Positions 41,121 through 56,999 of a stretch of 64,000 nucleotides of DNA are shown here, in pieces. Position numbers and translations under genes: made by a program. The notes under the pieces are model-generated. The model did no database searches. It was not told where the DNA came from and saw only the letters and a program-made list of their open reading frames with translations. Position 1 is the first letter of the stretch. Each line of letters starts with the position of its first letter. The DNA comes from an uncultured Clostridia bacterium (lineage in GTDB: Bacteria > Bacillota > Clostridia > Oscillospirales > Acutalibacteraceae): assembly GCA_944384705.1 (NCBI GenBank), contig CALWUI010000027.1:62001-126000 (forward strand). Reading direction: 5' to 3'.

Positions 41121-41160
41121 AAAAGCCTCTCAGATTTTTCTGAGAGGCTTTTTTTATTTT
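41121..41160 (+). terminator. terminator after glpT
   Basis: AAAAGCCTCTCAGA and its complement form a 14-bp stem with a 4-base T loop, then TTTTTTTATTTT. It overlaps the end of the convergent membrane-protein gene. Confidence 0.9.
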
Positions 41161-41534
41161 TTGTACCTAGTTCCATATTTATTTTTAAAACGTTTTGTAT
41201 TCTTACACAATTTATATAGGCAAAATGAGAAAAAAATAGTCCCAAAAACAGAAATAGCAATCAAAAAGATTCCAATAAACATTAAAAGATGTCCATTATC
41301 GGCTAAATCGGAAGAAGCTAAATTTTTTTGTATAAAATCGAATTCACGGTTTTCTTTTTTTATATCATCGTCAAGAACTATTTTCCAGTCATCAGGCGAA
41401 AGAGTGTCTTCTTGTTTTTCCGAGAGAACCCTTAAATTATATGCATCACAAAAATAATCATATTTAAAATGAATACTAACAAGAGATGCAAAGATCAAAA
41501 ATAAAAAGAAAAAAAAACTTATTATTTTTTTCAA
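41154..41534 (-). CDS. small two-helix membrane protein
   Basis: A 126-residue protein that I do not recognise. Hydrophobic helices at about 4-22 and 83-110 flank an acidic middle and end in a basic tail (KNTKRFKNKYGTRYKK), so the middle is probably outside the cell. It starts at a TTG (41534) behind TAGGGAGGA. It faces away from the particle operon and shares the promoter gap with it. It is too different from known holins to call one. Confidence 0.55.
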   Translation of the reverse strand: MKKIISFFFFLFLIFASLVSIHFKYDYFCDAYNLRVLSEKQEDTLSPDDWKIVLDDDIKKENREFDFIQKNLASSDLADNGHLLMFIGIFLIAISVFGTIFFSFCLYKLCKNTKRFKNKYGTRYKK

Positions 41535-41693: not shown

Positions 41694-42194
41694 TTGAAGC
41701 ATTCTAATAAAAAGAAATTGACTCATCGTGAGTATTCATTCTGCAATTATTATGTCAATTCTGGGGATGTAAAAAAGTCAGCTGCCTTTGCCGGATATAA
41801 GCTGGACCCTGAACTGACAGGTTATAAGCTTTTGCAAAGAGATGATATTAATTCTAAAATAGATGAACTATATGATCAAAAGAAGAAAAATTTGCTTTAT
41901 AAAGCGTGCAGAGGATATGAAAAATTAGCATTTGGCAGTATTTCTGATGCAATAAAGTTAATTTACTCCGACAACATATCTTTAGACGCGATTTGTAGAA
42001 TGGATCTTTTTAACGTTGCCGAAATTAAAAAACCTCGAGATGGAATGCTAGAAATAAAATTTTTTGACAGATTTAAAGCACTAGAGAAGTTACAACAATT
42101 AGATTTTTTAAGTGCAAATCAAAATAATTCATTCTACTCTGCAATAGAAAATAGCCTGCAATCCTTGAATCCTTCAGAGTTTTCTGAGGATTAA
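41694..42194 (+). CDS. terminase small subunit
   Basis: A 166-residue protein. It opens with the Terminase_2 pattern (LTHREYSFCNYYVNSGDVKKSAAFAGY), a helix-turn-helix region that recognises packaging sites or DNA ends, followed by a helical oligomerisation part. It starts at a TTG behind AAGGAGGG. It is first in the operon, directly before the large terminase. In gene transfer agents this subunit has lost specific pac binding. That cannot be judged here. Confidence 0.85.
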   Translation: MKHSNKKKLTHREYSFCNYYVNSGDVKKSAAFAGYKLDPELTGYKLLQRDDINSKIDELYDQKKKNLLYKACRGYEKLAFGSISDAIKLIYSDNISLDAICRMDLFNVAEIKKPRDGMLEIKFFDRFKALEKLQQLDFLSANQNNSFYSAIENSLQSLNPSEFSED

Positions 42195-42208
42195 GAGGTG
42201 GGATATCT

Positions 42209-43465
42209 TTGAAATTTAACTCGTTTTCTAAAAAACAACTAAAAGTTTTAACTTGGTGGTTTAATCCTAAGTTGTTAAGCAGATATGATGCATTGATTTG
42301 TGATGGTGCTATTAGAAGCGGAAAAACAATCTGCATGGGAATATCTTTTGTTGCCTGGGCTATGAAAAATTTTAATTTTTCTACTTTTGCAATTTGCGGA
42401 AAAACTCTTGGTTCATTAAAAAGAAATTTTGTCGATCCATTACTTCCACTATTAAATGATATTGGATTTCATTGCAAATTTAAAATCTCTGAAAATCTGA
42501 TAACAATAGGTTTTAGCCGAATAGAAAATAAATTTTACTTATTTTCAGGAAAAGATGAAGCCAGTGCAGCGTTTATTCAGGGGATAACTCTATCAGGAAT
42601 ATTGTTTGACGAAGTAGCCTTAATGCCTCAGTCTTTTGTAGAGCAAGCATTAGCCAGATGTTCTATTGCAGGTTCTAAATTCTGGTTTAATTGCAATCCG
42701 GAGTACCCTCAACATTGGTTCTACCAAGAATGGATAAGCAAGGCCGACAAAAAAAATGCGCTTTATTTACATTTTACAATGGATGATAATCCTTCTTTGT
42801 CGGAGTATATAAAACAGCGCTATGCCGGATTATACAGTGGAACGTTTTATGAACGTTTTATTGAGGGACGATGGGTGGCAACGCAGGGGAATGTGTATCC
42901 AGAGATGTGCAGTTTAGAAGCTTTTGTAGATGTTCCAAAAGTAAATTTTGAAAAATATATGATTTCTTGTGACTATGGCACTGTTAATCCTACCTCCATG
43001 GGGCTGTGGGCCAAATTTGATGGAGCTTGGTATAGGATCCGAGAGTATTATTATGATTCTAGAAAGACTGGTTTTTCAAAAACAGATGAAGAACATTATG
43101 AATCTCTTTGTAATTTGGCAGGATCTTTTAAAGTTGAGGCAATGACTGTAGATCCATCTGCTGCAAGTTTTATTACGCTTATTCGCAAAAATGGCAGATT
43201 TAAGGTGATTCCGGCAAAAAACAATGTAATTAACGGAATCAGAAAGGTTTCTACGGCACTAAAAAATAAAACTTTGATAATTTGCAATACGTGTAAAGAT
43301 AGTATTCGAGAGTTTTCTTTGTATCGATGGGAGGATTCACAAAACAAGGATGTTCCTGTTAAAGAAAATGATCATGCTATGGACGACATTAGATATTTTG
43401 CGTCTACATTGATGGATGATGAGCCTGACGACAGCTTTTTTGCTTTTGCATGCAAAAGAGAATAA
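42209..43465 (+). CDS. terminase large subunit (PBSX type)
   Basis: A 418-residue DNA-packaging motor. The N-terminal ATPase has Walker A GAIRSGKT (residues 33-40) and Walker B ILFDEVAL (about 133). The C-terminal RNase H-like nuclease has acidic residues in SCDYGTVNP, TVDPSAAS and DHAMDDIRYF. It starts at a TTG after AGAGGTGGGAT. All catalytic parts are present, so the cluster should be able to package DNA. Confidence 0.93.
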   Translation: MKFNSFSKKQLKVLTWWFNPKLLSRYDALICDGAIRSGKTICMGISFVAWAMKNFNFSTFAICGKTLGSLKRNFVDPLLPLLNDIGFHCKFKISENLITIGFSRIENKFYLFSGKDEASAAFIQGITLSGILFDEVALMPQSFVEQALARCSIAGSKFWFNCNPEYPQHWFYQEWISKADKKNALYLHFTMDDNPSLSEYIKQRYAGLYSGTFYERFIEGRWVATQGNVYPEMCSLEAFVDVPKVNFEKYMISCDYGTVNPTSMGLWAKFDGAWYRIREYYYDSRKTGFSKTDEEHYESLCNLAGSFKVEAMTVDPSAASFITLIRKNGRFKVIPAKNNVINGIRKVSTALKNKTLIICNTCKDSIREFSLYRWEDSQNKDVPVKENDHAMDDIRYFASTLMDDEPDDSFFAFACKRE

Positions 43466-43485
43466 TTTTTAAAAGGAGTGATTAA

Positions 43486-44637
43486 ATGAAGTTCTTTAAA
43501 ATTAGAAAAAAAAATGAATATTCAGCAGTGCAAACTGTTCAGACGCCAAGAAAAACAAATCCTTTTTATGAATTGAATAACTATAATCCTAGAGCACAGG
43601 CCGAATATGAGTTATATGCTTTGTTGCGAGAGGCTGTTCCTATTATCGATGCAGCTATTTGCAAAACAGTTAGACTTGTGGGCAGCTTTAAAATCGATTG
43701 CTCAGATAAAAATATAGAAAATCAGTTAAATAGATTTATCTCTCATGTAAAAGTTAATTCTTGCGAAAACGGTTTGAATGCGTTTATATCTACATATTTA
43801 GACCAAATGTTAACATATGGAACAGCTGTGGGAGAGATAGTTACGAACACGTTAAATAACGACATAGCAGCACTTTATAATGCATCACTTAAAGACATAA
43901 AGCTAAAAACAGGCCAAAATCCTCTAAATTTAGAAGTATGCAAAGAGGACGAGAATGGTAAAGTGATTCCGCTAAAATATCAAAATTTACTTTTAGTAAC
44001 GCCGCTAAAACCAGAGCCTGGTCATATTTATGGCACATCCATTTTAAAAGGTCTTCCTTTTGTGAGCGGGATTTTACTTAATATATACCACAGTATTAAC
44101 GCAAACTGGGAGAGAGTAGGCAATGTCCGTTTTGCAGTTACATATAAACCTGGCCCAGATGCCAGCGAAAAAGCCTACGCAAAAGAGAGAGCTATGCAGG
44201 TTGCTAATGAATGGAGTCGAGCTATGAGTTCTTGTGGAGAAGTGAGTGATTTTGTATCTGTAGGAGATGTAAGTATAAAGGTAATTGGTGCAGATAATCA
44301 AGTTTTAGACAGTCAGGTGCCTGTTCGCCAAATGCTTGAACAAATTGTTGCAAAACTTGCAATACCACCATTTATTTTGGGGCTTTCTTGGTCTACTACA
44401 GAAAAAATGTCTGCCCAACAGGCGGATATTTTAACAAGCGAATTAGAATTTTATAGACGATGTCTAGCCCCAGTTATAGAGAGAATTTGTAATAAATGGC
44501 TTGCGTTTAATGGCATGTACGCGGATTTTAGCATTGTTTGGGATAATATAAACCTGCAAGACGAAGTAGAAACAGCTAATGCAAGGTTGATGACAGCAAG
44601 AGCTGCAGAAATTGAAAAAAGATTGGGGAATATCTAA
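43486..44637 (+). CDS. portal protein
   Basis: A 383-residue protein with the portal layout: an N-terminal wing (LREAVPIIDAAICKTVRLVGSF), a central part (YGTAVGEIV, GHIYGTSILKGLP) and a stem/crown helix (MSAQQADILTSELEFYRRCLAPVIERI). It would form the dodecameric ring through which DNA enters the capsid. It lies between terminase and protease as expected, and its stop overlaps the next start. Confidence 0.85.
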   Translation: MKFFKIRKKNEYSAVQTVQTPRKTNPFYELNNYNPRAQAEYELYALLREAVPIIDAAICKTVRLVGSFKIDCSDKNIENQLNRFISHVKVNSCENGLNAFISTYLDQMLTYGTAVGEIVTNTLNNDIAALYNASLKDIKLKTGQNPLNLEVCKEDENGKVIPLKYQNLLLVTPLKPEPGHIYGTSILKGLPFVSGILLNIYHSINANWERVGNVRFAVTYKPGPDASEKAYAKERAMQVANEWSRAMSSCGEVSDFVSVGDVSIKVIGADNQVLDSQVPVRQMLEQIVAKLAIPPFILGLSWSTTEKMSAQQADILTSELEFYRRCLAPVIERICNKWLAFNGMYADFSIVWDNINLQDEVETANARLMTARAAEIEKRLGNI

Positions 44638-45620
44638 TGAAAGATGGTTATGTTATAAAGAGCAATTCGAATTATGAGGTAAATCATAGTGATCTTGATT
44701 TGATAAACAATTATACTCGCAGAAGGTTAACTGAAGATGACGTATATATTTTTTCTGTAGTACTCTGCGATAATGAAATAGATAGAGAGTACGAAAAATT
44801 TACAAGAGAAGCACTAAAAATTTTAGCAGAAATGTTTGTAGGCAAAACCGGAGTTATAGATCACGAAGCAAAGAGTGAAAATCAAATGGCAAGGATTTTT
44901 GCCTGCAATGTTGAAGATATACCAAATAAAACAAACTCTGTAGGTGAGCAATACTGTAGGTTAGTTGCAAGAGCTTACATGCCAAGATGCGAAAAAAATA
45001 ATGATTTTATTTTAGAAATAGATTCAGGAATAAAAAAAGAAGTAAGCGTAGGGTGTGCCGTAAAAAAAATGACTTGTTCTATTTGTGGCAGCGATGTTAA
45101 AATTGCCCCATGCGATCACAGAAAAGGTGAGTTATACGGTGAATCTCTTTGCTATGTTATTTTAAGTGAGCCTTTAGATGCTTACGAATGGTCCTTTGTT
45201 GCGGTTCCAGCACAAAAAAATGCAGGTGTTATAAAAATGTTCAATTCGTTTTCGAAGGGAGGTGCTAAATCTATGAATGACTTAATTAAATCTATAAAAA
45301 GAGGCGAAGCTGTTACTATTACAGCGGAGCAAGCTAGAGAATTATCTAAGCTGATTAATGAGCTGGAGCGTCTTGCAAGTGAAGGTAAGGAGTATTACAA
45401 CGATTTGAAGCGAGAAGTTATGCGGCTTTGTGCATTAACTCAGCCAGAGCTAAATCCTCAGGTTATGGACAGTGTTACTTCTAAAATGGATTTATGTGAA
45501 TTGAAAGCCTTTAAAAAAGCTTTCGAGATAAAATCAGAAGAAGTTTTACCGGCTAGACCTCAGTTATCTTACTTAAAAAAAGAAAAAACAAATCAAAAAA
45601 TTAAGGACTTTAAAATGTAG
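44637..45620 (+). CDS. prohead protease with C-terminal scaffold region
   Basis: A 327-residue protein. The first 205 residues resemble phage head-maturation proteases: a conserved His in GVIDHEAK and a Ser in KKEVSVGCAV, followed by a Cys-rich knuckle (CSICGSDVKIAPCDH) that may bind zinc. The last 115 residues are helical and charged like a scaffold or delta domain. An internal start with an excellent ribosome binding site separates the two parts. The capsid gene follows 37 bases later. Confidence 0.8.
   Translation: MKDGYVIKSNSNYEVNHSDLDLINNYTRRRLTEDDVYIFSVVLCDNEIDREYEKFTREALKILAEMFVGKTGVIDHEAKSENQMARIFACNVEDIPNKTNSVGEQYCRLVARAYMPRCEKNNDFILEIDSGIKKEVSVGCAVKKMTCSICGSDVKIAPCDHRKGELYGESLCYVILSEPLDAYEWSFVAVPAQKNAGVIKMFNSFSKGGAKSMNDLIKSIKRGEAVTITAEQARELSKLINELERLASEGKEYYNDLKREVMRLCALTQPELNPQVMDSVTSKMDLCELKAFKKAFEIKSEEVLPARPQLSYLKKEKTNQKIKDFKM
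45255..45264 (+). promoter_or_regulatory. internal ribosome binding site for a nested scaffold protein
   Basis: AAGGGAGGTG lies eight bases before an in-frame ATG at 45273 inside the protease gene. Confidence 0.7.
45273..45620 (+). CDS. nested scaffold protein, in frame with the protease
   Basis: A 115-residue product of an internal in-frame start. It is helical, with a long charged stretch (ARELSKLINELERLASEGKEY) suited to a coiled-coil scaffold. The arrangement matches lambda C/Nu3, where the scaffold is made from an internal start of the protease gene so that more scaffold than protease is produced. The assignment rests on position, the strong ribosome binding site and composition. Confidence 0.6.
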   Translation: MNDLIKSIKRGEAVTITAEQARELSKLINELERLASEGKEYYNDLKREVMRLCALTQPELNPQVMDSVTSKMDLCELKAFKKAFEIKSEEVLPARPQLSYLKKEKTNQKIKDFKM

Positions 45621-45657
45621 TCTATAAAAAATTAATTAAATTTATGGAGGAGTAAAA

Positions 45658-46671
45658 ATGGCTTTTTATGATTCAGTAAAACTTGAAAAGGGTATGTATA
45701 ATTTAGGCTTTACAAAAGCATTAGAATCTATAGACCCATCAGAAAACTATGAGGGAACAGACTTAGCTGGCTTAGATGCTTATGAGCGCCAACTAAAAAG
45801 ATTTAATATTAGGGTTAAAGGGCAAAATTCTGATGTTATTGAGAGCTTTTTTAAAACGACAGATTCTGCGGTATTATTTCCCGAATTTGTAAAGCGGAGC
45901 GTTTTGCAGGGTATGGATAGTTCTAATATATTAGCCTCAATAGTTGCAACTGTAACTAATGTAGAAAACAATGACTACAGAACTATAAAATCTACAACAG
46001 ACAGTACGTCAGGAAATTCTGTAAATGAAACAAGCGAACTTCCAGAAACTGCAATTCAAACAAAAACCAGCCTGGTATCAATGAAAAAGCGCGGCAGAGT
46101 AATTTCTACCTCTTATGAGGCTTTAAAACATAAACGTCTAGACCTTTTTGCAGTTATGCTTAGAAAAATAGGTTTTGACATAGCAAATGCACAACTAGGC
46201 GATGCCGTAGATGTTTTAGTAAATGGAGATGAATCTGGAAGCGCCGCGGCAGCAGTTACTCCTGTTAGCACAAGTGGCATAGCTTATGCAGATTTGATCG
46301 AACTATGGGCCAATTTATCCGGTTATGAGCTAAATACAATCTTGGCAAATACCGAAACAATGCAAAACTTGCTTGCATTAACCGAACTGCAAGATGTACA
46401 GACTCTTTTAAGTTTTAAAGATGCTACACAGGTTGTTACACCGCTTGGCGCAACCTTGCACCGTGTTGATAAAGTTGCAGATAATACGATTGTTGGGTTT
46501 GATAAGAACTGCTCATTGGAGATGGTAAGAGTAGGTGACTTAACTGTAGATTACGATAAATTAATTGACAAACAGCTAGAAAGAGCAGCAATTAGTGCGA
46601 CAGCTGGTTTTGCAAAAATTTTTGCAGATGCAGCTAAAAAAATGACTTATACGCCAGCAATAACAGAGTAA
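45658..46671 (+). CDS. major capsid protein (HK97-fold candidate)
   Basis: A 337-residue protein directly after the protease/scaffold gene, behind GGAGGAG. The N-terminal 60 residues are charged and may be the part removed by the protease. The rest resembles phage major capsid proteins (LFPEFVKRSVLQG, SMKKRGRVISTSYEALKHKRLDLFAVMLRKIG, LANTETMQNLLALTELQD). Size and place fit. The fold is inferred. Confidence 0.85.
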   Translation: MAFYDSVKLEKGMYNLGFTKALESIDPSENYEGTDLAGLDAYERQLKRFNIRVKGQNSDVIESFFKTTDSAVLFPEFVKRSVLQGMDSSNILASIVATVTNVENNDYRTIKSTTDSTSGNSVNETSELPETAIQTKTSLVSMKKRGRVISTSYEALKHKRLDLFAVMLRKIGFDIANAQLGDAVDVLVNGDESGSAAAAVTPVSTSGIAYADLIELWANLSGYELNTILANTETMQNLLALTELQDVQTLLSFKDATQVVTPLGATLHRVDKVADNTIVGFDKNCSLEMVRVGDLTVDYDKLIDKQLERAAISATAGFAKIFADAAKKMTYTPAITE

Positions 46672-46690
46672 TCTGAAGGGATGATGAGTT

Positions 46691-47056
46691 TTGAATCTAG
46701 AAAATATTATAGAGCGGTTTGCTTTATTAGCTAGTTTGAGCAAAGAAGAAGCAAATAATTTTACATACATTTGCAGTGATGCAAAAGAAGAGATAATTTC
46801 AAAACTTTTACCCGATGTAGACTTGACTTTGCACAGTGAGCGGCTTATAGCCGCCGCTGGTGCTTTGAGTCTTTATAAATATATGCAGCTTAAGGCGTTG
46901 GGAGAATCTGTAGAGTCTTTTTCTGCTGGAGACATAACTGTAAAAGAAAACATGAGCAAAGCGGTAAAAGTTGCATACGAGATTTGGCAGGACGAAAAAG
47001 CAAAAATATCCGATCTATTAGAGGATGAAGATTTTGTTTTTTGGCAGGTGAAGTAA
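46691..47056 (+). CDS. head-tail connector protein
   Basis: A 121-residue mostly helical protein beginning at a TTG. It resembles gp6/gp15-type adaptors that bind below the portal (SKEEANNFTYICSDAKEEI, AAGALSLYKYMQLKA). It follows the capsid gene and overlaps nothing. The assignment is mainly by position and size. Confidence 0.65.
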   Translation: MNLENIIERFALLASLSKEEANNFTYICSDAKEEIISKLLPDVDLTLHSERLIAAAGALSLYKYMQLKALGESVESFSAGDITVKENMSKAVKVAYEIWQDEKAKISDLLEDEDFVFWQVK

Positions 47057-47057
47057 A

Positions 47058-47405
47058 ATGTTTAGCGATTGTGTTTCTAGCATTATAGATAAATTCGGTA
47101 GAGCGGTTACTATAAACCTGAGTGACAATAGTAAGATTAATACCAAAGCCTTTATTCAGCCTCTAAGATATAAAGATCAGACATATATGGGTGGAAAATG
47201 TTTAGACATAGGTTACTTAGACGGCAAAAATTATCTTTATATCGGAGATAAAAACACTCGACTAGATTTATATCCATTTAACACAAAAATAGATACATTT
47301 AATGAGAGCTATGTTGTAAAAAGAGCACAGGCAGTTTATCTTGGAGAAAATATTTTATACATATGGGCAATAGTTCAAGTTTTTGTGGAGGATGAAGATT
47401 TATGA
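47058..47405 (+). CDS. head closure or minor head protein
   Basis: A 115-residue protein, beta-rich, one base after the connector gene. Size and place match head-closure proteins of PBSX-like phages. I see no diagnostic motif. Its stop overlaps the next start (ATGA). Confidence 0.55.
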   Translation: MFSDCVSSIIDKFGRAVTINLSDNSKINTKAFIQPLRYKDQTYMGGKCLDIGYLDGKNYLYIGDKNTRLDLYPFNTKIDTFNESYVVKRAQAVYLGENILYIWAIVQVFVEDEDL

Positions 47406-47887
47406 GTGTATTTAATCAAATTGTTGACAAAATCAAATTGGATCTTTCAGAAAGTGTCAATTTAGCATCAATAAAATTTATAAGTCTAGATAACGAGGAG
47501 AAAGTACCTAATCCAATCAAAAATACTTATGTTTCATTTGAAATAGAAAAAATTTCAATAAAGGAGGGTTCTTTTAATTCGTTTCTTGGCACAGATACTT
47601 CTGGTGACCGGTATGGAAACAAAATGGAAATTATTTTAGATATGAATATTTTTTCTCCAAGAAAAAGCGGTAGCAAAGAGTGTTACGAAACCTTTTCTAA
47701 AATATACGAAGAACTCCTGCGCCACAGAGAAAATTATAATATTGATGAAATTTCGTGTGAAAAAACTAAATATAATATAGATGTTTTTTCGTTTGAACTA
47801 AACTGTAGCATAAAACTTAGCGCATATCTTGGATACGCAACAGAAGAGATTAATATAAGTGACATAAAAATAAAGAAAAAGAGCTAA
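47402..47887 (+). CDS. tail completion / tail terminator-like protein
   Basis: A 161-residue protein between the head-closure and sheath genes, where PBSX-like phages encode the tail terminator that caps the tube. It contains a mixed alpha/beta pattern. The assignment is by position. Confidence 0.5.
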   Translation: MSVFNQIVDKIKLDLSESVNLASIKFISLDNEEKVPNPIKNTYVSFEIEKISIKEGSFNSFLGTDTSGDRYGNKMEIILDMNIFSPRKSGSKECYETFSKIYEELLRHRENYNIDEISCEKTKYNIDVFSFELNCSIKLSAYLGYATEEINISDIKIKKKS

Positions 47888-47898
47888 GGGGTGATATT

Positions 47899-48945
47899 TT
47901 GACAATATTAGCAAAACAAAGACCAGGTGTGTATTCAGACTATAATACATCAAAAATAATGTACTCACAAAAAACAGGCAAGAGTATAGCTATTGTGGCA
48001 AAATCTAATGCAGAAACAGACAAAATATATAACATACAAAGTCTATTAGATGCTCAAACAATTTTTGAAAGCAGTAGCACAATGTATTTGCTATGCAAAG
48101 CTGTTTTAGAGAATGGAATGAGCAGCATTTTAGCAGTTTCAGTCGGGAGTTCTGACAATAATTACGAGTCAGCCTTTGACCTAATAGAAGCGACCGATGG
48201 AATAAGTGCAGTTATTTGCGACAGTACAAATGATTCTATTCAGCAATTACTGATGCAAAGTGTTTTAAATGCATCAGAGAATAAAAGAGAAAGGTTAGGC
48301 GTTTTAGCGTCACCAGAAAGTAACGATTCACTTAGCACATGGGCCAAACAATTTAATAGTGAAAGAATTCTTTTAATTGCGCAAAGCCCTATAAATTCAG
48401 AAGGAACAACTCTATCGAGTTGCAGTTTAGCGGCAGCTTTGGCAGCTGTAATTTCTAAATATACAGATCCATCTCAGTCATTTAATGGAGCAGAAATAGA
48501 AGGATTTTCTAAAATTAATAAATCTCTTACTGAAGACGAGGTTGATGAATATATAACAAATGGAATTATTCCTTTTGAAGTGGTTGCCGGTAGAATAGAA
48601 ATAATAAGGGCAGTAACCTCTAAAACAACAACTAATGGCGTAGCGGACAAAACATTTAAAGAAGTCAACACAATTTTAATTATTGATGAAGTTATAAAAT
48701 CTATTCGAGAGGCACTTAAAAATAATATTTCTGCAGCTAAGAACAATGTTACAACAAGAAATGCAATAAATAGTCAGGTGACTGTTAAGTTGCAAGAATT
48801 TTTAGATGCTGGAATCATAGATTCATATTCTGCACCAAATGTATATCAATCGAGCGAAGACCAAAGTGTTTGCATTGTAGAAATTGAATTTACAGTTGTA
48901 CAAGGAATAAATCAGATTCATATAACTGCCAATATAAATGTTTGA
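47899..48945 (+). CDS. contractile tail sheath protein
   Basis: A 348-residue sheath protein beginning at a TTG behind AAGGGGTGAT. The N-terminus (KQRPGVYSDYNT) and the C-terminal domain (NTILIIDEVIKSIREALKNN, TRNAINSQVTVKLQEFLDAGIIDSY) match phage sheath proteins. It is short for the family, with few surface domains. It shows that the tail is contractile. Confidence 0.88.
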   Translation: MTILAKQRPGVYSDYNTSKIMYSQKTGKSIAIVAKSNAETDKIYNIQSLLDAQTIFESSSTMYLLCKAVLENGMSSILAVSVGSSDNNYESAFDLIEATDGISAVICDSTNDSIQQLLMQSVLNASENKRERLGVLASPESNDSLSTWAKQFNSERILLIAQSPINSEGTTLSSCSLAAALAAVISKYTDPSQSFNGAEIEGFSKINKSLTEDEVDEYITNGIIPFEVVAGRIEIIRAVTSKTTTNGVADKTFKEVNTILIIDEVIKSIREALKNNISAAKNNVTTRNAINSQVTVKLQEFLDAGIIDSYSAPNVYQSSEDQSVCIVEIEFTVVQGINQIHITANINV

Positions 48946-48956
48946 GGAGGTGCTTT

Positions 48957-49346
48957 ATGCTAAACATAACCTTTCCGACCAGCAAAGACATATACATAGA
49001 GGTAAACGGCAAAAAATTAGCTGTAGTAGAAAGTTACAAAGCAAGATCTACCTGCGAAAGCCAATATATAGAGGCTTTTGGCCAAAATGAACCAGTTGGA
49101 ACGATTTCTGGCAAGGTGCATCATACTATAGAATTATCTAGAGTATACGTCTGCGATGATGACACGAACAGCCGAGTTAATTTTTATGATTTACACAATT
49201 TTAATTTGGTAATAGTAAAGCCCGATAAAAAAATAATTTACTCTGGTTGCGATTGGTCCGATATAAACGAATCAGCTTCAATAAATGGTGCTGTTTTAGA
49301 AGATGTAACTTTGATTGCGGCCAAAAGAATGGAGGTTTCTATATGA
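48957..49346 (+). CDS. tail tube protein
   Basis: A 129-residue protein directly after the sheath gene, from the ATG at 48957 behind GAGGAGG. Size and pattern (KSTCESQYIEAFGQ-like region, GTISGKVHHTIELSRVYV) fit the inner tube protein of myophage tails (XkdM-like). Its stop overlaps the next start. Confidence 0.75.
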   Translation: MLNITFPTSKDIYIEVNGKKLAVVESYKARSTCESQYIEAFGQNEPVGTISGKVHHTIELSRVYVCDDDTNSRVNFYDLHNFNLVIVKPDKKIIYSGCDWSDINESASINGAVLEDVTLIAAKRMEVSI

Positions 49347-49735
49347 AGCCCAAAATAAAACCGTTTGAAGTTTATAAAGGCAAAATTAGAAAAGCAATAA
49401 ATTTGCCTCAAAATAAAAAAGCATACGTAAATTTACTTTCAGTTTACGATATGCTTATTTGTGAAAGAATGTCTAAATCTTTAATTTTAAAACTTATAAA
49501 TGATGGGTTTGAAAGAAGCCAAGCAACAAAAGTTGCCGAAAACGCCTGTTTGAGCGTAATGTGTTTAACGGATCATAACTCTTTGCCTCTTTTTGACAAT
49601 ACAAAAGATTTAATGAACAGCCTAAGTGCAGAAGATATGCTCTGTATAGTAAAAGAATATTCTGAACTTCGCAAGGACTATCTTGGTTTTGACTTGCTTG
49701 ACGAAAAAGAACTAGAGCAGGTAAAAAAAAATTAA
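49343..49735 (+). CDS. tail assembly chaperone, G form
   Basis: A 130-residue protein, from the ATG at 49343 after GGAGG, with stop/start overlap to the tube gene. It is helical and in the position of XkdN/gpG chaperones, which coat the tape measure during tail assembly. It ends in a run of nine A residues, at which a ribosome can slip to make the longer GT form. Confidence 0.75.
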   Translation: MKPKIKPFEVYKGKIRKAINLPQNKKAYVNLLSVYDMLICERMSKSLILKLINDGFERSQATKVAENACLSVMCLTDHNSLPLFDNTKDLMNSLSAEDMLCIVKEYSELRKDYLGFDLLDEKELEQVKKN

Positions 49736-49941
49736 ATTCTAAATTTGAAAGAGCACGTTGGGAAATATTAAAAAAATTCAATAAATTGCCAAATGATCCA
49801 GTTGTAAAAAATATGACAGAAAATGATTATTTATATTGTTATGCACATATGATGCTAGATAAAGAAAAGACTTATGAAGAGTATATTTTTAACGAAAGTT
49901 TTAATCCAGAAGAATACAAAAGAAAGTGTGGTGAATATTAA
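49343..49941 (+). CDS. tail assembly chaperone, GT form by -1 frameshift
   Basis: The -1 frame is open from the A9 run (49723-49731) through 69 codons to the TAA at 49939-49941. It has no ribosome binding site or start of its own after the stop of the G form, so it is best read as the T extension. It is rich in aromatic and charged residues (YLYCYAHMMLDKEKTYEEY). The fusion would be about 199 residues. Frameshifted tail chaperones are conserved in long-tailed phages. Confidence 0.7.
49723..49731 (+). promoter_or_regulatory. slippery A9 frameshift site
   Basis: Nine consecutive A bases (in-frame AAA AAA AAT before TAA) give a classic site for -1 slippage. Confidence 0.7.
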
Positions 49942-50231
49942 TGCAGATATTTGACGCAATATTAAATCAATACATGCAGTTAGCATTAGAAACAAATCAA
50001 TACAAAAACAACTTAAGAATTTTAAATTTTAGCCAAAACTATGTTAGAAAAAGTGACAATAACACATCGATTAGTTTTGAAGCACAAAGTCATAATACAA
50101 TAGCGCAAAGGAATACCTCTTATTATAGCCAAGCAGATAGCAACATTAAAGAAATATATAACAAAATGGAATTTGATGCACGGCGCTACAACAGAAATTT
50201 TGACATTCAGACAGGAGCAGCCGCATTATGA
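49941..50231 (+). CDS. 96-residue protein in the tape-measure position
   Basis: A small helical, Asn/Gln-rich protein whose ATG overlaps the stop of the chaperone extension and whose stop overlaps the LysM gene. In related phages the tape-measure gene, often one of the longest, stands exactly here. There is no trace of a longer frame in either neighbour. The protein might be a minimal tape measure, or a plug or hub adaptor. I do not recognise its sequence. Confidence 0.65.
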   Translation: MQIFDAILNQYMQLALETNQYKNNLRILNFSQNYVRKSDNNTSISFEAQSHNTIAQRNTSYYSQADSNIKEIYNKMEFDARRYNRNFDIQTGAAAL

Positions 50232-50749
50232 AATTAAATGTTATGAAATTTAAAAATTATATTTGGCCATATAACCCTGCCAATATAGAAATATTAATAC
50301 AAAGATCGATAAAAGAAGTTATTATTCCGTTTAGAGGAAACAAATTTCAAGACTATGGCAGAGAAAAGAGAGTTATTACAGGTTCTGGGCAATTTTTTGG
50401 AGAAAACTGCATAGACCAATTTGACGAACTATTTTTTTTATTCAAGCAGGGAGGAAATGGTTATTTAGCTTTGCCAGGGATGGCGCCTTTTTTGGCTATT
50501 TTTAAGCGTCTTGAATTAATTGCTTCTACAACAGAAGTTTTAAATTATAGCTTCGAATTTTGGGAAGATCTAGCGCAAACAGAATCTAGTTCAGTTCTGT
50601 ATGAAGACTATTATACAGTTTTAGAAGGGGATACGCTTTGGGATATTTCGGTGCGATTTAATATTCCGGTAGAAACCTTATTAGCGTTAAATACTAATAT
50701 AAAAAATCCGAATCAACTAAGAGTGGGCGAAAGGTTGCGATTACGATGA
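50228..50749 (+). CDS. LysM tail protein (XkdP/gpX-like)
   Basis: A 173-residue protein. The N-terminal part binds tube or hub in relatives. The C-terminal 45 residues form a LysM domain (YYTVLEGDTLWDISVRF, LRVGERLRLR). LysM binds peptidoglycan-like sugars or, in tails, bridges tube and hub. The start overlaps the previous stop and the stop overlaps the next start, as in PBSX xkdO-P-Q order. Confidence 0.88.
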   Translation: MKLNVMKFKNYIWPYNPANIEILIQRSIKEVIIPFRGNKFQDYGREKRVITGSGQFFGENCIDQFDELFFLFKQGGNGYLALPGMAPFLAIFKRLELIASTTEVLNYSFEFWEDLAQTESSSVLYEDYYTVLEGDTLWDISVRFNIPVETLLALNTNIKNPNQLRVGERLRLR

Positions 50750-51693
50750 AATATCTTGCAACGACGATATCAGATGAAGAAATAGATTTAGGTCCTGCTT
50801 ATAATGTTCAAATAAATAGATCTAAAGAAGCACCTGCAGATAGTTTAACTGCAGTTTTTTTTAGTCAAAAAAAACATTCGGAATATAAAAATTTAGCAGT
50901 TTACACAGAAAAGAATCAATTATTTTTTTCCGGCATTGTTGATGAGCAACAGTTTGAGGTAAGCGAGAGTGGCTGCTTTTTAACGATTAAATCCAGAAGT
51001 AACACAGCATATTTAATTGACAATGAAGCTAGTCCGCAAATTTATAAACGTCCTTCGCTTGATATTATTTTTAGAAGACACGTGGAGCCATATGGTTTCA
51101 CTTCGGTAATTGGTGATAAATCTATTTTTAACGTGACGCTTGAAGTTGAAAAAGGCATGAGCGAGTGGGATGTATTTGAGCAGTTTTGTAGGTTATGCTT
51201 AAAAGAATTTCCCATTGTAAATCCAAATGGAGTTATTGATGTATCAGGAAGATCTGAGTCGGATTTGATATTATTTTCAAACAAGAATGACGGAGTTAAT
51301 TACAGCGCGGTAAATCAAAAATATAGTAGGTACAAATTGATTTCAGAGATTACCGTATGTGCTCCGTATGCGGCTATTTATGTAGATAAAATTAAGGCTC
51401 AAGAATTAATAAATAAAGGAATTAGCCGCAGGAAGTTTATAAGCATGTCGGAAGACACTGAAACGTCTAAGGCAATATCTGTGAGCACAGCAGAACAGAT
51501 GATTTATGAATCAAAAAAGAAGTTCAATGAAATTATAATAAAATGCCCGGGAGCAGTTTACGCGCAGCTTGGCAACAAGTGTGAGATAAATGACTACATA
51601 TTGGGCAGCATGAAAAATTTGCAAATTTATGAGATCGATTATATTTTAAACCATAATGGAGAATTTACACTATTCACACTATTGGAGGGATAA
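50746..51693 (+). CDS. baseplate hub protein (gpD/XkdQ-like)
   Basis: A 315-residue protein like the gp27/gpD hub that continues the tube into the baseplate (ADSLTAVFF near the start, LDIIFRRHVEPYGF in the middle, KCEINDYILGSMKNLQIYEIDYIL near the end). It follows the LysM gene with ATGA overlap and precedes the spike gene. Confidence 0.82.
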   Translation: MKYLATTISDEEIDLGPAYNVQINRSKEAPADSLTAVFFSQKKHSEYKNLAVYTEKNQLFFSGIVDEQQFEVSESGCFLTIKSRSNTAYLIDNEASPQIYKRPSLDIIFRRHVEPYGFTSVIGDKSIFNVTLEVEKGMSEWDVFEQFCRLCLKEFPIVNPNGVIDVSGRSESDLILFSNKNDGVNYSAVNQKYSRYKLISEITVCAPYAAIYVDKIKAQELINKGISRRKFISMSEDTETSKAISVSTAEQMIYESKKKFNEIIIKCPGAVYAQLGNKCEINDYILGSMKNLQIYEIDYILNHNGEFTLFTLLEG

Positions 51694-51696
51694 AAT

Positions 51697-52032
51697 ATGT
51701 GGCTTTCAAAACAGATAAGCAATGCATGCAAATTAATAAAAAACACACAAATAGGTGAGGTGACCTCAACTCACGACGATACAGTAACGGTACAAACAAG
51801 TGAAGAACATAGAGAAATAAAAGTTGCAGCACCTTTTGGAGTAATATCCATTCCACCAACTGGAGCAAAAGCTGTAGTCACGCCAACGGAGCAAGGTTTT
51901 ATTTACACAGGAGTATTAAATCAAGCTTCTGATTTAGAGCCAGGAGAGTTAATGCTATATTCAAGCGGGGGTGCAAATATCGTATTAAAAAATAACGGTC
52001 AAGTTTTGATAAATGGTACAGCTTTGGAATAG
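51697..52032 (+). CDS. baseplate spike protein (gpV-like, OB fold)
   Basis: A 111-residue beta-rich protein (VTSTHDDTVTVQT, VISIPPTGAKAVV, PGELMLYSSGGANIVL). It resembles the OB-fold and start of the needle of gpV/gp5 spikes that pierce the target envelope. It is short, so the needle would be a stub. Start behind GGAGGGATAAA. Confidence 0.72.
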   Translation: MWLSKQISNACKLIKNTQIGEVTSTHDDTVTVQTSEEHREIKVAAPFGVISIPPTGAKAVVTPTEQGFIYTGVLNQASDLEPGELMLYSSGGANIVLKNNGQVLINGTALE

Positions 52033-52042
52033 AGGTGATATT

Positions 52043-52390
52043 TTGGATACAGCAATTAGCAGTGGAGATTTTATTTGTGATTCAAAAGGATATCTTATAG
52101 AGTTATCGGGTTATGATGAACTTTTGCAGAGGATTCTGATACGCCTGACAATAAAGCAGGGTAGTTTTGTATATGATACTTCGCTTGGTAGCCGCCTTTA
52201 TACGTTAAAACCAACGGATATAAATATAAAAAATCGAGCATTGTCAATGATTAGAGAGGCACTAGCAGATGTTACGGAAGTAATAGTTGATGATGTATAC
52301 ACTGCGTTGACAAATGAAGGAGAAAATCTAGAATTGACAGTGATGCTATCAATAAACGATACAGAGAAAGATGTGGTGATAACAATATAA
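52043..52390 (+). CDS. baseplate wedge protein gp25-like (gpW/XkdS)
   Basis: A 115-residue protein from the TTG at 52043 behind AGAGGTGATA. It has the gp25/lysozyme-like fold pattern, with QRILIRLTIKQGSFVYDTSLG and the EVIVDDVYTAL segment. gp25 nucleates sheath assembly on the baseplate. Its stop overlaps the gpJ start. Confidence 0.82.
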   Translation: MDTAISSGDFICDSKGYLIELSGYDELLQRILIRLTIKQGSFVYDTSLGSRLYTLKPTDINIKNRALSMIREALADVTEVIVDDVYTALTNEGENLELTVMLSINDTEKDVVITI

Positions 52391-53451
52391 TGGAAAGTTA
52401 TGAAGATATTTTAAAAAGAATGAGAAGCAAGTTCACAGAATTAAGCGGAGCAAACATAAACGATGATTCGGATGTTGGCATAAGAATGAAGGTTTTGGCA
52501 GGAGAAATATTTTCTTTACAGAATAATGTTCAATGGCTCAAAAATCAGATGTTTGCGCAAACAGCTCAAGGTGAACAATTAGATTATTTAGCATTAGAAC
52601 GAGGATTAACTAGAAAATCAGCACTTAAATCTACAGGAACGCTTAAATTTATGAGAGATTCAGCACTCGACTATGATTTAGAGATACCAGTAGGAACAAT
52701 CTGTTCAACCAATGGAATTAATCCAATAAGAGTAAAAACCATAGAATCCGCAATTTTAGAGACTGGAGATCTTTCCGTAACAGTTCCAGCAGAGTCAGAA
52801 GAAGGCGGAACGCTACAGAATACAGGAGTAGGCACGGTAAAAATCATGGTGACGCCACCTGCAGGGATAACTTATGTAACAAATGAGACCGCATTTGTTG
52901 GAGGCATGGATGCAGAAAGCGACGAAGAATTAAGAGAAAGACTCATAGATAGTTACAAAAATATTTCTAATGGAACTAATGCAGCATTTTATAAATCTCA
53001 GGTTTTAAAATACGATGGTATATACTCGGCGAGTGTAGTAGGCAAAGCTAGAGGAGTAGGCACAGTAGATATTTATGTTGCGGCAAAAGGTGGGTTGCCA
53101 AGTGATGCACTGGTCTCAGAAATACAATCAGAGATAAATTCAATAAGAGAACTTAACGTAGATGTTAAAGTGTACAAAGCAGAGGCAGTAGAAATAGCGG
53201 TTGGAGTAGATATATCTGTAAAAAATGGCTACAGTTTTGATGCAATAAAAGAGCAATGTATAGCGAACATAACAGAGTATTTTAACACTCTAAAAATAGG
53301 TGAACCATTTCTTATCGCGGCTCTTGGCAATGCAATTTACACTGTGCAAGGAGTGGAGAATTATTACATTTTATCGAGTATTAGCACAGATAGATATACA
53401 ACTTCAAAGCAACTTGCAATAAAAGGTTCTGTGCAGATCTCAGAAAGGTGA
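52390..53451 (+). CDS. baseplate protein J
   Basis: A 353-residue Baseplate_J family protein. It opens with the typical segment (YEDILKRMRSKF, FAQTAQGEQLDYLALERG), and GGMDAESDEELRERLIDSYKN and GVGTVDIYVAAKGG are in place. It forms the wedge of the baseplate with gp25 and gpI. Confidence 0.92.
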   Translation: MESYEDILKRMRSKFTELSGANINDDSDVGIRMKVLAGEIFSLQNNVQWLKNQMFAQTAQGEQLDYLALERGLTRKSALKSTGTLKFMRDSALDYDLEIPVGTICSTNGINPIRVKTIESAILETGDLSVTVPAESEEGGTLQNTGVGTVKIMVTPPAGITYVTNETAFVGGMDAESDEELRERLIDSYKNISNGTNAAFYKSQVLKYDGIYSASVVGKARGVGTVDIYVAAKGGLPSDALVSEIQSEINSIRELNVDVKVYKAEAVEIAVGVDISVKNGYSFDAIKEQCIANITEYFNTLKIGEPFLIAALGNAIYTVQGVENYYILSSISTDRYTTSKQLAIKGSVQISER

Positions 53452-53461
53452 TGGTATCTAA

Positions 53462-54034
53462 ATGAGTTCGCTCAATTCTATTAAGCAAACACTTCGTCCG
53501 TTAGGTTTTTATAATCTTAACGAAAATACGCTAATCAATGCGGAACTTTCGGCCTATGCTATGGTTCTAGATGAGATATCCTTGCAACTTTCTGAAATAG
53601 AAAGAGAAAGATTCATCTCAACAGCAGAAAGTTATGGCCTGAGCATGAGAGAACTAATTTTTACAACAGAACAAAATGAAAAAACTGCCCAGGAAAGAAG
53701 AGACGTACTATTATATAGAACAGCAATTACTCCTAATGATTTTAATGAGAGTAGCATAAAAAGAGCAATGGAAATAGCCGGTGCAACAGGCTATATAATT
53801 GAAGACCATAGCAACAGCACTGTATATATTAATTGTCTGGAGCTAGCTGATAGTTCACCAGATAAAGAGACCATAAAAAGTATGATATCAGAGTTTTTAC
53901 CGGCACATCTTGAATGCATATTCGATTTTAGAAATCTGCAATGGGATACATTAGACAGCAAAGATAAAGTCTTTGACGAATTTGATTCAGATGATTTAAC
54001 CTGGAACGAAATAGATAATTATGAAGAAATATAG
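53462..54034 (+). CDS. baseplate/tail protein I-like (YmfQ family)
   Basis: A 190-residue protein after gpJ, matching the YmfQ/gpI type that attaches fibres to the wedge (LRPLGFYNLNENTLINAELSAYA, ERRDVLLYRTAITPNDFNESSIKRAME, FLPAHLECIFDF). Its C-terminus is acidic. Confidence 0.8.
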   Translation: MSSLNSIKQTLRPLGFYNLNENTLINAELSAYAMVLDEISLQLSEIERERFISTAESYGLSMRELIFTTEQNEKTAQERRDVLLYRTAITPNDFNESSIKRAMEIAGATGYIIEDHSNSTVYINCLELADSSPDKETIKSMISEFLPAHLECIFDFRNLQWDTLDSKDKVFDEFDSDDLTWNEIDNYEEI

Positions 54035-54045
54035 GAGGAGAAAAT

Positions 54046-54519
54046 ATGCCAACAGAAAATAAAACTACAAATTTAGGATTAAATAGCTGGTTAGGTACAG
54101 ACAAGCCAAAACGGGCAGATTTTGTATCGGATAACACAATATTGGATACAGTGATAAGCAATCATCTAAACGACGATACATTGCACCTGACTGAAGAAAC
54201 TAAAGCTTTAATAGAAAACCCATTTACAATAGGAGTACTTTCTGGCGACGGTGAGGCAAGCAAAGATCATACACTTAGCTTTTTTCCACGTTGTGTTTTC
54301 ATTTTTTTAAGGAATGCACCATTTATAGAATATGATTCAACAAACGGATATACAGTTTGTAACAGCGCCGTAGTAGCAGCGGACGGTGGTGGAGGGACCC
54401 CCGGAGCATCTTTGTTCTTAGACACGCTAACGCTTTCTCAAAGCACTTCAGCCAGCAATGGCAGATTTATAAACTTGAATAAGAGCGGCGCACAGTATTT
54501 TTATATAGCTTTTAAGTAA
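54046..54519 (+). CDS. short tail fibre or baseplate tip protein
   Basis: A 157-residue protein. The first 60 residues (TTNLGLNSWLGTDKPKRADF, HLNDDTLHLTEETK) are the usual N-terminal attachment part of clostridial phage fibres. The rest is a short Gly/Ser-rich beta domain (ADGGGGTPGASLFLDTLTL). No chaperone or long receptor-binding domain follows, so host contact would be by this small protein alone. It is last in the operon. Confidence 0.78.
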   Translation: MPTENKTTNLGLNSWLGTDKPKRADFVSDNTILDTVISNHLNDDTLHLTEETKALIENPFTIGVLSGDGEASKDHTLSFFPRCVFIFLRNAPFIEYDSTNGYTVCNSAVVAADGGGGTPGASLFLDTLTLSQSTSASNGRFINLNKSGAQYFYIAFK

Positions 54520-54526
54520 AAATGAG

Positions 54527-54557
54527 CCCTACAAAATTGTAGGGTATTTTTATTTTA
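54527..54557 (+). terminator. terminator of the particle operon
   Basis: CCCTACA and TGTAGGG form a stem with a 4-base loop, followed by TATTTTTATTTTA. Confidence 0.85.
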
Positions 54558-54582: not shown

Positions 54583-55824
54583 TTATTTTATAGAGCAAAA
54601 GTTATCAAACTTAGGATTTACCAACATATCTCCACAAATAACATTATTGTTTGTTGAGTTTTTTTTGCTAAATATTGATTTTTCGAATAATAAATTTAGA
54701 CTTGTAAAAATTTTTGCTCTAAAATGTTTATTTTTGTAACAAAAAAGAACATCTGCAAGCAGCCTAGTTGTTTTAATATCGAATCTTAATATTTTTGACG
54801 AGTATACAATAGGAATTTCGTCATAATTTTGCTTTAATATAAATAATTTTGGAATAATTTTCAGACGTTGATGGGAAATAGCCTCATAGTTAAAAAGATC
54901 GGCATTGCCAGGGTTTAAAATATTTAGCAAATCAGAGAAATATTGATTACATATTAAATTTTTTAAATAATTTTCTTTTATCAAGTAAATTTTTTTTGTT
55001 TTAAAGCCTTGTGAATCATATTTTATCCCATTAAATGGAAGAGAAACAAGATCAAAATTAAAATTAAAAATTTTATTATTAATATCTTTAGTTTTAATAA
55101 AGCTATTTTCAAAGTAAACATTGTTTGAATAAAATGCAATTATATACTGATTAAGAAATTCTGCGACCACGTTACTTTTAAATAGTATAGGTTTAGATAG
55201 ATCTAAATTTTTATAAAGAAAATTTACTTTGTTATAACTTATTTGCTTTTGCAATAGATAAGAAATAGAATTTTTTAGTGGATTAAAAAATGATATAAAA
55301 AAATTCTCAAGTATGTTGTCAGATTTATAAAAGAAGCCTTCAATATGAATAATTTGCTGCTGAATTCGTTTATTGCTTATAATTATCAGTTGCTGGAGAA
55401 TCTTGATCTCTATAGTAGCATTCAACTTAAGTTTACAGTTTTTTAATACATAATCAATATCAGTTTCGAGATCATTTATACATTTGCGCGGACAAAGAAA
55501 CTTTGAACCATTGAAATTTAGGCTATCAAGTTTAACACTTTTTATTTTTTTGCTTATAAAATTTTTATGCATGCCAAAAAGTAAAGCTGTCTCTATTAAT
55601 TTTTTTATATTTTTATAAGAAGTTTCTTCAGAAAGTTTTAGCTCTATAGGGTTCTTGTTGATTTTAAAATTCAAAGTGATATTTATTAGATTTGCATTCT
55701 CCAAAATTTTTTTATTATTGCATTTGTAGCTAAATATAACTTTTGTTAATCTCTCTTTAATAATTTTATAATTAAAGATACCGTATTCAATCAAAACATT
55801 TTCTATAAAATTTATTTTATTCAT
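54583..55824 (-). CDS. TldE/PmbA-like protease subunit
   Basis: A 413-residue diverged TldE. The C-terminal half keeps the family's landmarks (VVAEFLNQY, YDSQGFKTKKIYLIKENYL, PGNADLFNYE), while the N-terminal half is very rich in Asn, Lys and Ile. There is no HEXXXH motif, as expected for the non-metal partner. TldD and TldE form a heterodimeric metalloprotease that threads and cuts unfolded peptides, for instance the microcin B17 leader. Its start overlaps the end of the TldD-like gene by 8 bases. Last gene of the cluster. Confidence 0.78.
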   Translation of the reverse strand: MNKINFIENVLIEYGIFNYKIIKERLTKVIFSYKCNNKKILENANLINITLNFKINKNPIELKLSEETSYKNIKKLIETALLFGMHKNFISKKIKSVKLDSLNFNGSKFLCPRKCINDLETDIDYVLKNCKLKLNATIEIKILQQLIIISNKRIQQQIIHIEGFFYKSDNILENFFISFFNPLKNSISYLLQKQISYNKVNFLYKNLDLSKPILFKSNVVAEFLNQYIIAFYSNNVYFENSFIKTKDINNKIFNFNFDLVSLPFNGIKYDSQGFKTKKIYLIKENYLKNLICNQYFSDLLNILNPGNADLFNYEAISHQRLKIIPKLFILKQNYDEIPIVYSSKILRFDIKTTRLLADVLFCYKNKHFRAKIFTSLNLLFEKSIFSKKNSTNNNVICGDMLVNPKFDNFCSIK

Positions 55825-56992
55825 GTAGATTTCCCTGCAGAATTGGAATTTTTGACAGGCTTATAGTTGGAGCTAAAACTCCTACGCGAACCAACTGATT
55901 TAACTTTCCACAGAAAGAAACGGTAATCTGAGGGTCATTGCCTATAAAATCCAAATATTTCAAATCAGTTAATACGTTACCGTTGATAATAAGGCTACTT
56001 ACAAAATTTTTTATTTCTCCATTTTTTACTATAAAACCTTCACCGGACAAAACATATTTGTCCGAATTAAAAGTGGTGTAAGCAGATCTAATTTTAGACA
56101 TAAATAAGGCATTTTTATATCTAGCAATAATATCATTTTGAGCGTAATTATTTACAGTTTTTATCTTTGTAAAGCGCATTCTGGGCAAAGAAATGGTTTT
56201 AAAATTTTCGCGTCGAGCAAAACCATATAGTTTTCTATCAAAGCTTGATTTTTTATTAATGGCCATAATATTTGTTATTTTTCCAGCAGATATTAATTTT
56301 AAAGGTTTTATTTTTGTTCCTCTGTCATCGAATTTATTTAAACCAATAAAATGTTCGTAACCAGTTATATCATCAACTATTTCTATTTTTTTAGGTATAT
56401 TATAATTTTCAAAAAGTTTTTTATTAAAACAAAAAAAATCCTCTTCAAGCAAGTGCCCAATTATTTCGTGGATAAAACACCCAGCCGCCTGTGCAGACAA
56501 AATTACCGGGTAATTAGTCCTGAAAAAAGGTTTAGCTGTTAAAAATTTTTTCCTGATAATTTTTTCAAAGTAACATATATAAGTAGAAATTTGATCAAAT
56601 AAAAGCTTAAGATCCCGTGTGATAGCAAATTCACTTGAAAAATTTTTATTATTTATATTCATTATGATTTTTATAAAGCCATATACTCTGAAATCTTTTT
56701 TTTCATCAATTAATATAGTCTCGCTATGCATTTTTAAATATGCCGAAAAAGATGTTTTTAAACTTTTAAGCTTTTTAAATATATTCTCTAAGAATATTTT
56801 AAGGGTATAAATATCATTATCATTTAAAATAAAAAAGCCATAATTATTTGTTGTAGTGGACTTACAAGTTTTAATTTTTATTGTTCCATTTTTCAACTGA
56901 ACCCGATCTCCACTTAAAGATTCAAAAGTATATTCAAATTTTCCGTTTGTATATTTGATAATAAAATCGTTATTATCCTGTATATAATACAT
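55817..56992 (-). CDS. TldD-like metalloprotease subunit
   Basis: A 391-residue TldD homologue, from the ATG at 56992 behind TTGAGG. An open frame 16 codons longer overlaps the radical SAM gene and is less likely. The catalytic HEXXXH is present as HEIIGH (His175, Glu176, His180), and a Cys near the C-terminus (SFCGKLNQLVRVG) fits the third metal ligand known in TldD. It is co-translated between the radical SAM and TldE-like genes. The likely role is leader or precursor cleavage of the modified 65-residue peptide. Confidence 0.85.
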   Translation of the reverse strand: MYYIQDNNDFIIKYTNGKFEYTFESLSGDRVQLKNGTIKIKTCKSTTTNNYGFFILNDNDIYTLKIFLENIFKKLKSLKTSFSAYLKMHSETILIDEKKDFRVYGFIKIIMNINNKNFSSEFAITRDLKLLFDQISTYICYFEKIIRKKFLTAKPFFRTNYPVILSAQAAGCFIHEIIGHLLEEDFFCFNKKLFENYNIPKKIEIVDDITGYEHFIGLNKFDDRGTKIKPLKLISAGKITNIMAINKKSSFDRKLYGFARRENFKTISLPRMRFTKIKTVNNYAQNDIIARYKNALFMSKIRSAYTTFNSDKYVLSGEGFIVKNGEIKNFVSSLIINGNVLTDLKYLDFIGNDPQITVSFCGKLNQLVRVGVLAPTISLSKIPILQGNLHE

Positions 56993-56999
56993 AGCAACC

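Follow-up and report, generated by a model that had tools for sequence, protein, structure and literature searches.

Gene transfer agents (GTAs) are known chiefly from Alphaproteobacteria and Brachyspira, and RcGTA is a domesticated, vertically inherited GTA whose structural genes form a single-locus cluster under purifying selection. The defective prophage PBSX of Bacillus subtilis has the gene order xtmA-xtmB-xkdE-F-G-H-I-J-K-M-N-[O]-P-Q-R-S-T-U. One gut GTA has been published, FpGTA of Faecalibacterium prausnitzii (Nat Commun 2026; PMC12946183). Its ten-open reading frame (ORF) operon, FpGTA I, contains the small terminase (TerS), large terminase (TerL), portal, scaffold, and capsid genes, and a second operon 125 kb away contains the baseplate and lysis genes (PMC12946183). 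The FpGTA particles show no visible tail; their heads measure 40 nm and contain random host fragments of 8.4-8.9 kb (PMC12946183). The same study also reports packaging of a GTA-like kind in Oscillospiraceae and in Ruminococcus callidus (PMC12946183), and searches of the open-access literature gave no further report on GTAs from Oscillospirales. Here we describe an operon in a 64,000-nucleotide stretch of DNA (the window; contig CALWUI010000027.1, positions 62,001 to 126,000, assembly GCA_944384705.1) from an uncultured bacterium of the Acutalibacteraceae, order Oscillospirales, whose 1.09-Mb genome is 99.5% complete in 30 contigs. The operon has probably descended from a PBSX-type phage that was domesticated and then inherited vertically, and it would make a small, DNA-filled, GTA-like particle for its host.

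Among the described systems, FpGTA appeared to be the closest, and on its anatomy, compared by description rather than by sequence, the operon may work like FpGTA. The two are of the same order, and each has a chromosomal TerS-TerL-portal-scaffold/protease-capsid operon without replication genes. FpGTA is nearly ubiquitous in its genus and its tail is invisible or very short; the window operon was present in all three genomes of its genus and would likewise carry a very short tail. In contrast to FpGTA, the window operon unites head, sheath, tube, and baseplate genes, with no lysis genes found, and its length of 12.8 kb stands against the 8.4-8.9 kb held by FpGTA heads. PBSX shares with the operon its gene order and the family of its large terminase, whereas the operon is without a long tape measure (XkdO), a lysis cassette, and a regulatory region, and its relatives have a reduced tail or none. 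As with RcGTA and the other alphaproteobacterial GTAs, the operon is domesticated, vertical, confined to a single locus, and under purifying selection; however, RcGTA is siphovirus-like, has a tape measure, and has a TerS without the DNA-binding domain, while the window operon has contractile ancestry, has lost the tape measure, and keeps Terminase_2 in TerS. R-type tailocins likewise combine a contractile sheath and a baseplate without replication genes, but they have neither heads nor terminase, whereas the window operon has terminases, portal, and capsid, and the head is its most conserved part.

The operon spanned positions 41694-54519 and consisted of 19 sense ORFs, most of them overlapping or a few bases apart, with all reading frames intact. 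Scanning of the operon proteins and the flanking genes against PHROGs, Pfam, and NCBIfam showed a gene order of the PBSX type, in which the terminase, portal, putative protease, capsid, and neck genes were followed by the sheath, tube, chaperone, LysM, hub, and baseplate genes. The flanks were cellular: upstream lay genes for a P-type ATPase and an MFS transporter, and downstream those for a radical SAM/PqqD protein and two TldD/PmbA-like proteins; the holin/endolysin cassette that adjoins the tail genes in PBSX-type elements was not found among these downstream genes. No integrase, repressor, replication, holin, or endolysin gene was found by the family scans in the operon or the flanking genes scanned, and PF05105, the one holin family searched genome-wide, was not found in the host genome. 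No attL/attR-like repeats were present, and the exact direct repeats between the flanks were AT-rich words of only 13-15 nt. As in GTAs, the cluster thus had no integration, excision, or replication genes, and the features expected of an active temperate prophage, namely an integrase with att sites, modules for replication and lysis, and mobility between genomes, were not seen. An earlier reading of the window, made without database searches (the sequence-only reading), had placed at 41694-54557 an operon with intact and tightly coupled head, packaging, and baseplate genes, with no integrase, repressor, replication, holin, or endolysin gene in or beside it and no flanking repeat. Since the operon is intact and of PBSX order, has cellular flanks, and lacks a long flank repeat, this observation was correct; the end lies at 54519 rather than at 54557.

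Vertical inheritance was assessed in 60 genomes by comparing a tree of the head proteins (TerL, portal, capsid, and the XkdF-position protein) with the rpoB tree. The two trees had 38 of 57 splits in common, against a mean of 0.43 and a maximum of 5 after shuffling of the labels within family blocks, and the Mantel r between the head-protein and rpoB data was 0.78, a value reached in 0 of 1000 permutations. The operon occupied one conserved place, immediately upstream of hflX, in at least seven genera of the family, some of them represented by complete chromosomes, and its opposite flank was often a set of GntR/ABC-transporter genes. A conserved gene of 415-427 aa after the fibre gene was first taken as a member of the operon, but it reads as host HflX by sequence and served as the marker of this locus. 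In the sister species, the operon was flanked by the same neighbours as in the window. Comparison with this species gave ratios of nonsynonymous to synonymous substitution (dN/dS) of 0.02-0.28 for all 18 genes tested, with dS mostly 0.3-0.9, so purifying selection acts on every operon gene tested. The cluster is therefore inherited vertically with its host and under purifying selection, as expected of a GTA. The sequence-only reading had taken the complete frames as a sign of selection for function, had suggested a domesticated particle, and had proposed congruence with the host tree as a check; the dN/dS values, the single copy, the restriction to the order in the sample, the congruent tree, and the conserved locus bear this out.

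With the portal as the search marker, the operon was traced in 3/3 genomes of the window genus and in 175/300 Acutalibacteraceae genomes (80/135 genera), essentially always as a single copy, and only a few of the portal matches listed in this family contained a stop. The named relatives with the best matches included Faecalispora, Clostridium sporosphaeroides, Caproicibacter, and Caproiciproducens, which is placed in Acutalibacteraceae by NCBI. Across the order, the portal was present in 70/394 genomes, distributed over families f1, f2, f7, f14, f15, and f26, and in the second family, f26, it was present in 143/337 genomes (62/126 genera), again essentially always as one copy and with few stops; in family f13, which includes a genome bearing the phage FP_Mushu, it was found in 0/87 genomes. 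A class-wide sample gave nine matches in 391 genomes, eight within Oscillospirales and one marginal at 18.8 bits; apart from this last match, the portal was effectively absent from the ~370 sampled genomes of the other orders of the class.

Relatives of the operon were also found in viral databases. Among 50,697 phage records, the close portal relatives were five unannotated faecal 'Bacteriophage sp.' scaffolds, and two of the three such scaffolds examined carried host genes such as NrdD, SecY, RnfC, and GerA. These scaffolds therefore look like bacterial chromosome recovered from virus-like-particle preparations, an origin that is suggestive only. In MT835508.1 and MT835952.1, both faecal 'Bacteriophage sp.' scaffolds, the operon lay among host genes. 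IMG/VR contained at least 335 portal relatives, and those mapped (L279-L358) were mostly fragments of ~4-15 kb with the same operon layout and no long tape measure.

The interval between the tube and LysM genes held only the chaperone pair and a 96-aa ORF (49941-50231, + strand), with no tape-measure gene of normal size; for scale, the tape measures of the contractile Faecalibacterium phages FP_Mushu and FP_Lagaffe have ~795 aa and ~1263 aa by their annotated coordinates. A normal-size tape measure was absent from every operon mapped and every relative examined, and PHROGs named neither the ORFs at the tape-measure position nor the chaperone. The ORF directly before the LysM gene, which in the window ends in a D-x-RRY motif, had a D-x-RRY-like C-terminus by a strict pattern at 52/93 loci, and many of the remaining loci showed variants such as RRF, LRY, and RCY. 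The length of this ORF was 54-98 aa in the window genus, ~150-290 aa in many operons of other families that have a sheath, and 40-80 aa in many operons without one. The 96-aa ORF may be the remnant of a tape measure that retains its hub-proximal end. The tail-assembly chaperone was present as a short, G-like form (49343-49735, +; assigned by position, with the same layout in the relative L035) and a -1 frame extension (49723-49941, +), in which an A9 run followed by TTAA and an open -1 frame, also repeated in L035, were likened to the programmed frameshift of lambda G/GT.

Loss of tail genes was surveyed in 40 operons of the host family. The genes for TerS, TerL, portal, XkdF-position protein, capsid, and the first neck protein were present in 39-40 of the 40 operons, and those from the hub to gp48 in ~32; the sheath was present in only four besides the window, most relatives in the family being sheathless. 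In several genomes whose operon was reduced to the head and neck genes, baseplate J was absent genome-wide. Sheath-bearing operons were common in family f14 and present in part of family f26, and the operons of other f26 genomes had about ten ORFs, representing terminases, portal, protease, capsid, neck, and hub; these (e.g. L395, L400, and L404) match the described size and content of FpGTA. Since the head and neck were kept while tail genes were lost across the relatives, the head and the motor are what selection keeps. In two relatives (L036 and L039), ORFs of ~350 and ~790 aa located 3' of the head genes looked like a sheath and a tape measure, but they were discarded because by sequence they read as NusA and IF-2, the products of nusA-infB in the host. 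The sequence-only reading had called the particle contractile, which agrees with the sheath but not with the nearly vanished tape measure and the sheathless state of most host-family relatives. It had missed the lack of a normal-size tape measure, the retained chaperone pair with its -1 frameshift site, and the inheritance of the lineage across several families.

By gene content, the operon would be a GTA-like system whose ancestry is contractile and whose tape measure is almost gone. In the proposed mechanism, a small subset of cells would express the particle genes, and the terminase, portal, protease, and capsid would fill the head with DNA, presumably that of the host. The connector would bear a very short stub tail made of sheath, tube, baseplate, and the 96-aa tape-measure remnant. 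Particles would be released by lysis genes located outside of the operon, and the released DNA would be taken up by kin. ComEC, which is present in the host genome and is permissive only, could import the delivered DNA. The short tail length, lysis via other genes, and DNA delivery are likely parts of this mechanism rather than observed ones.

As a tentative but quite possible history, a single ancestral domestication would have occurred no later than the divergence of several Oscillospirales families (Acutalibacteraceae, with Oscillospiraceae and Ruminococcaceae as probable further members), giving rise to an order-wide GTA. The contractile tail would then have been dismantled stepwise, the tape measure first, with only its C-terminal D-x-RRY anchor left, then the sheath, and last the tube together with the baseplate; selection would have continued to act on the head and the packaging motor. 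In this history FpGTA would form a single tip of the lineage, and the window genus would have kept a working sheath with almost no tape measure.

The same genes could also encode a PBSX-like killing particle, which would package host DNA without injecting it and kill competing relatives with its sheathed short tail, killing being the selected function. The PBSX gene order, the PBSX-family terminase, and the purifying selection on the sheath and full baseplate in the window genus are consistent with this explanation. However, there is no tape measure for a long tail, most family relatives have lost the sheath, and several lack baseplate J altogether. Because the head was always kept while these parts were lost, the selected part is the DNA container and not a killing device, which makes the killing particle unlikely. 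A mobile element, either an active prophage or a satellite that relies on the genes of another element for integration, replication, and lysis, would account for the phage-derived head genes, the different locus in some relatives, and the genomes without the operon. The single copy per genome, the congruent tree, the conserved hflX locus, and the near absence outside of the order argue against mobility. Satellites normally hijack the capsid of a helper rather than carry a full head-tail set, and the operon carries such a set; a mobile element is accordingly improbable. As for a decaying prophage remnant that is intact by chance, the missing integrase, replication, and lysis genes and the scattered broken-frame copies would fit it, but it is contradicted by the purifying selection on the operon genes at the measured divergence (dN/dS 0.02-0.28, dS mostly 0.3-0.9), by intact frames over dozens of genera, by the congruence of the head tree with the host tree, and by the persistence of the operon in ~1 Mb genomes, and it is scarcely credible.

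Several observations also weigh against a domesticated GTA-like particle. No portal match was found in ~40% of the family genomes, 4/39 strongly supported head-protein splits conflicted with rpoB, the operon of the third species of the genus had different neighbours, and the TerL and baseplate J genes of one relative (L034) were each split in two. TerS retains the full Terminase_2 domain (nearly all of PF03592), so there is no clear sign of the loss of packaging specificity that characterizes RcGTA and FpGTA, and random packaging is not guaranteed. Moreover, we infer, rather than observe, packaging and transfer in this organism. The expectation of the same locus in relatives held for the sister species and for the hflX clade of at least seven genera but not for the third species of the genus. 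Of the signs named beforehand as speaking against domestication, att sites, an integrase, and a patchy recent spread were not found, whereas frame-disrupted copies do exist among the relatives, although they are rare. The interpretation of the sequence-only reading was supported in its main claim. In another relative (L069), the XkdF-position and capsid genes were split, and a sequencing error is likely there because its rpoB was also split into two overlapping matches.

The head and packaging genes, like all genes of the operon, were on the + strand. TerS (41694-42194; 166 aa, TTG start) matched Pfam PF03592 Terminase_2 with 50.5 bits at residues 9-136, nearly the whole profile. TerL (42209-43465; 418 aa) was assigned to the PBSX family by NCBIfam TIGR01547 (194 bits vs. 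a cut-off of 105) and matched phrog_2 (2e-48), and the portal (43486-44637) matched phrog_30703 (5e-137). The XkdF-position protein (44637-45620), a putative prohead protease or scaffold, matched phrog_16951 of unknown function (1e-99) and, weakly, the head maturation protease phrog_18299 (9e-5); H76, S137, and a Cys/His cluster were invariant in the alignment of its relatives. The major capsid protein of HK97 fold (45658-46671) matched phrog_3922 (1e-80) and was above the cut-off of TIGR01554. Many relatives had a decoration-protein-like ORF of ~110-130 aa between these two genes (e.g. L345:9009-9392), which is absent from the window, and in some f26 operons (L400, L403, and L397) the capsid gene preceded the XkdF-position gene, the reverse of the usual order. 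By their positions, neck proteins H (46691-47056), I (47058-47405), and J (47402-47887) are the putative head-tail adaptor, stopper, and tail terminator, and they were kept in 40/40, 30/40, and 22/40 host-family operons, respectively.

The contractile tail sheath (47899-48945; 348 aa) contained both Phage_sheath domains (PF04984 and PF17482) and matched phrog_279 (2e-36). The following gene (48957-49346; 129 aa, ATG start with a ribosome-binding site) probably encodes the tail tube, as judged from its post-sheath position, and it matched phrog_27038 of unknown function (3e-46). From the end of the tube gene through the tail chaperones to the start of the 96-aa ORF, a sharp-edged 773-bp tract (49273-50045) had only four differences from the sister species (99.5% identity vs. 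a background of ~86%), resulting from either recent recombination or an assembly artefact. The XkdP-like LysM baseplate/tail protein (50228-50749) was recognized by Pfam LysM (54 bits), with a weak DNA_circ_N match, and the XkdQ/gp27-like hub (50746-51693) by phrog_177 (5e-13). The baseplate further included a gp45-like spike at the XkdR position (51697-52032; PF06890, 7e-5), a gp25-like sheath initiator/wedge at the XkdS position (52013-52390; PF10934, 4e-4, and phrog_43), baseplate J (XkdT; 52390-53451; PF04865, 7e-46), and a gp48-like wedge (XkdU; 53462-54034; phrog_521, 3e-16, and PF10076). The last gene (54046-54519; 157 aa), weakly matching phrog_33092 and kept in 22/40 operons, is a candidate short fibre or receptor-binding protein.

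Outside of the operon, the two TldD/PmbA-like genes and the radical SAM/PqqD/SPASM gene at 54583-58280 (- strand) were also found beside the operon of the sister species (L032). This gene set resembles a peptide-modification (RiPP-like) cluster, in which no precursor was identified. Just 5' of the operon, an antisense ORF at 41154-41534 (- strand) encoded a membrane-like protein of 126 aa, which had a 127-aa counterpart in the sister species and no PHROGs match.

If the proposed history is true, a single old GTA lineage would span hundreds of species of dominant gut anaerobes, persisting even in 1-Mb genomes and being catalogued in viral databases as short proviruses. The role of capsid-borne host DNA in gut gene exchange would then become testable in cultured strains, such as those of Clostridium sporosphaeroides and Caproicibacter. 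The relatives would also provide a natural series of contractile tails losing the tape measure, the sheath, and the baseplate, which bears on the question of the minimal tail that can deliver DNA.

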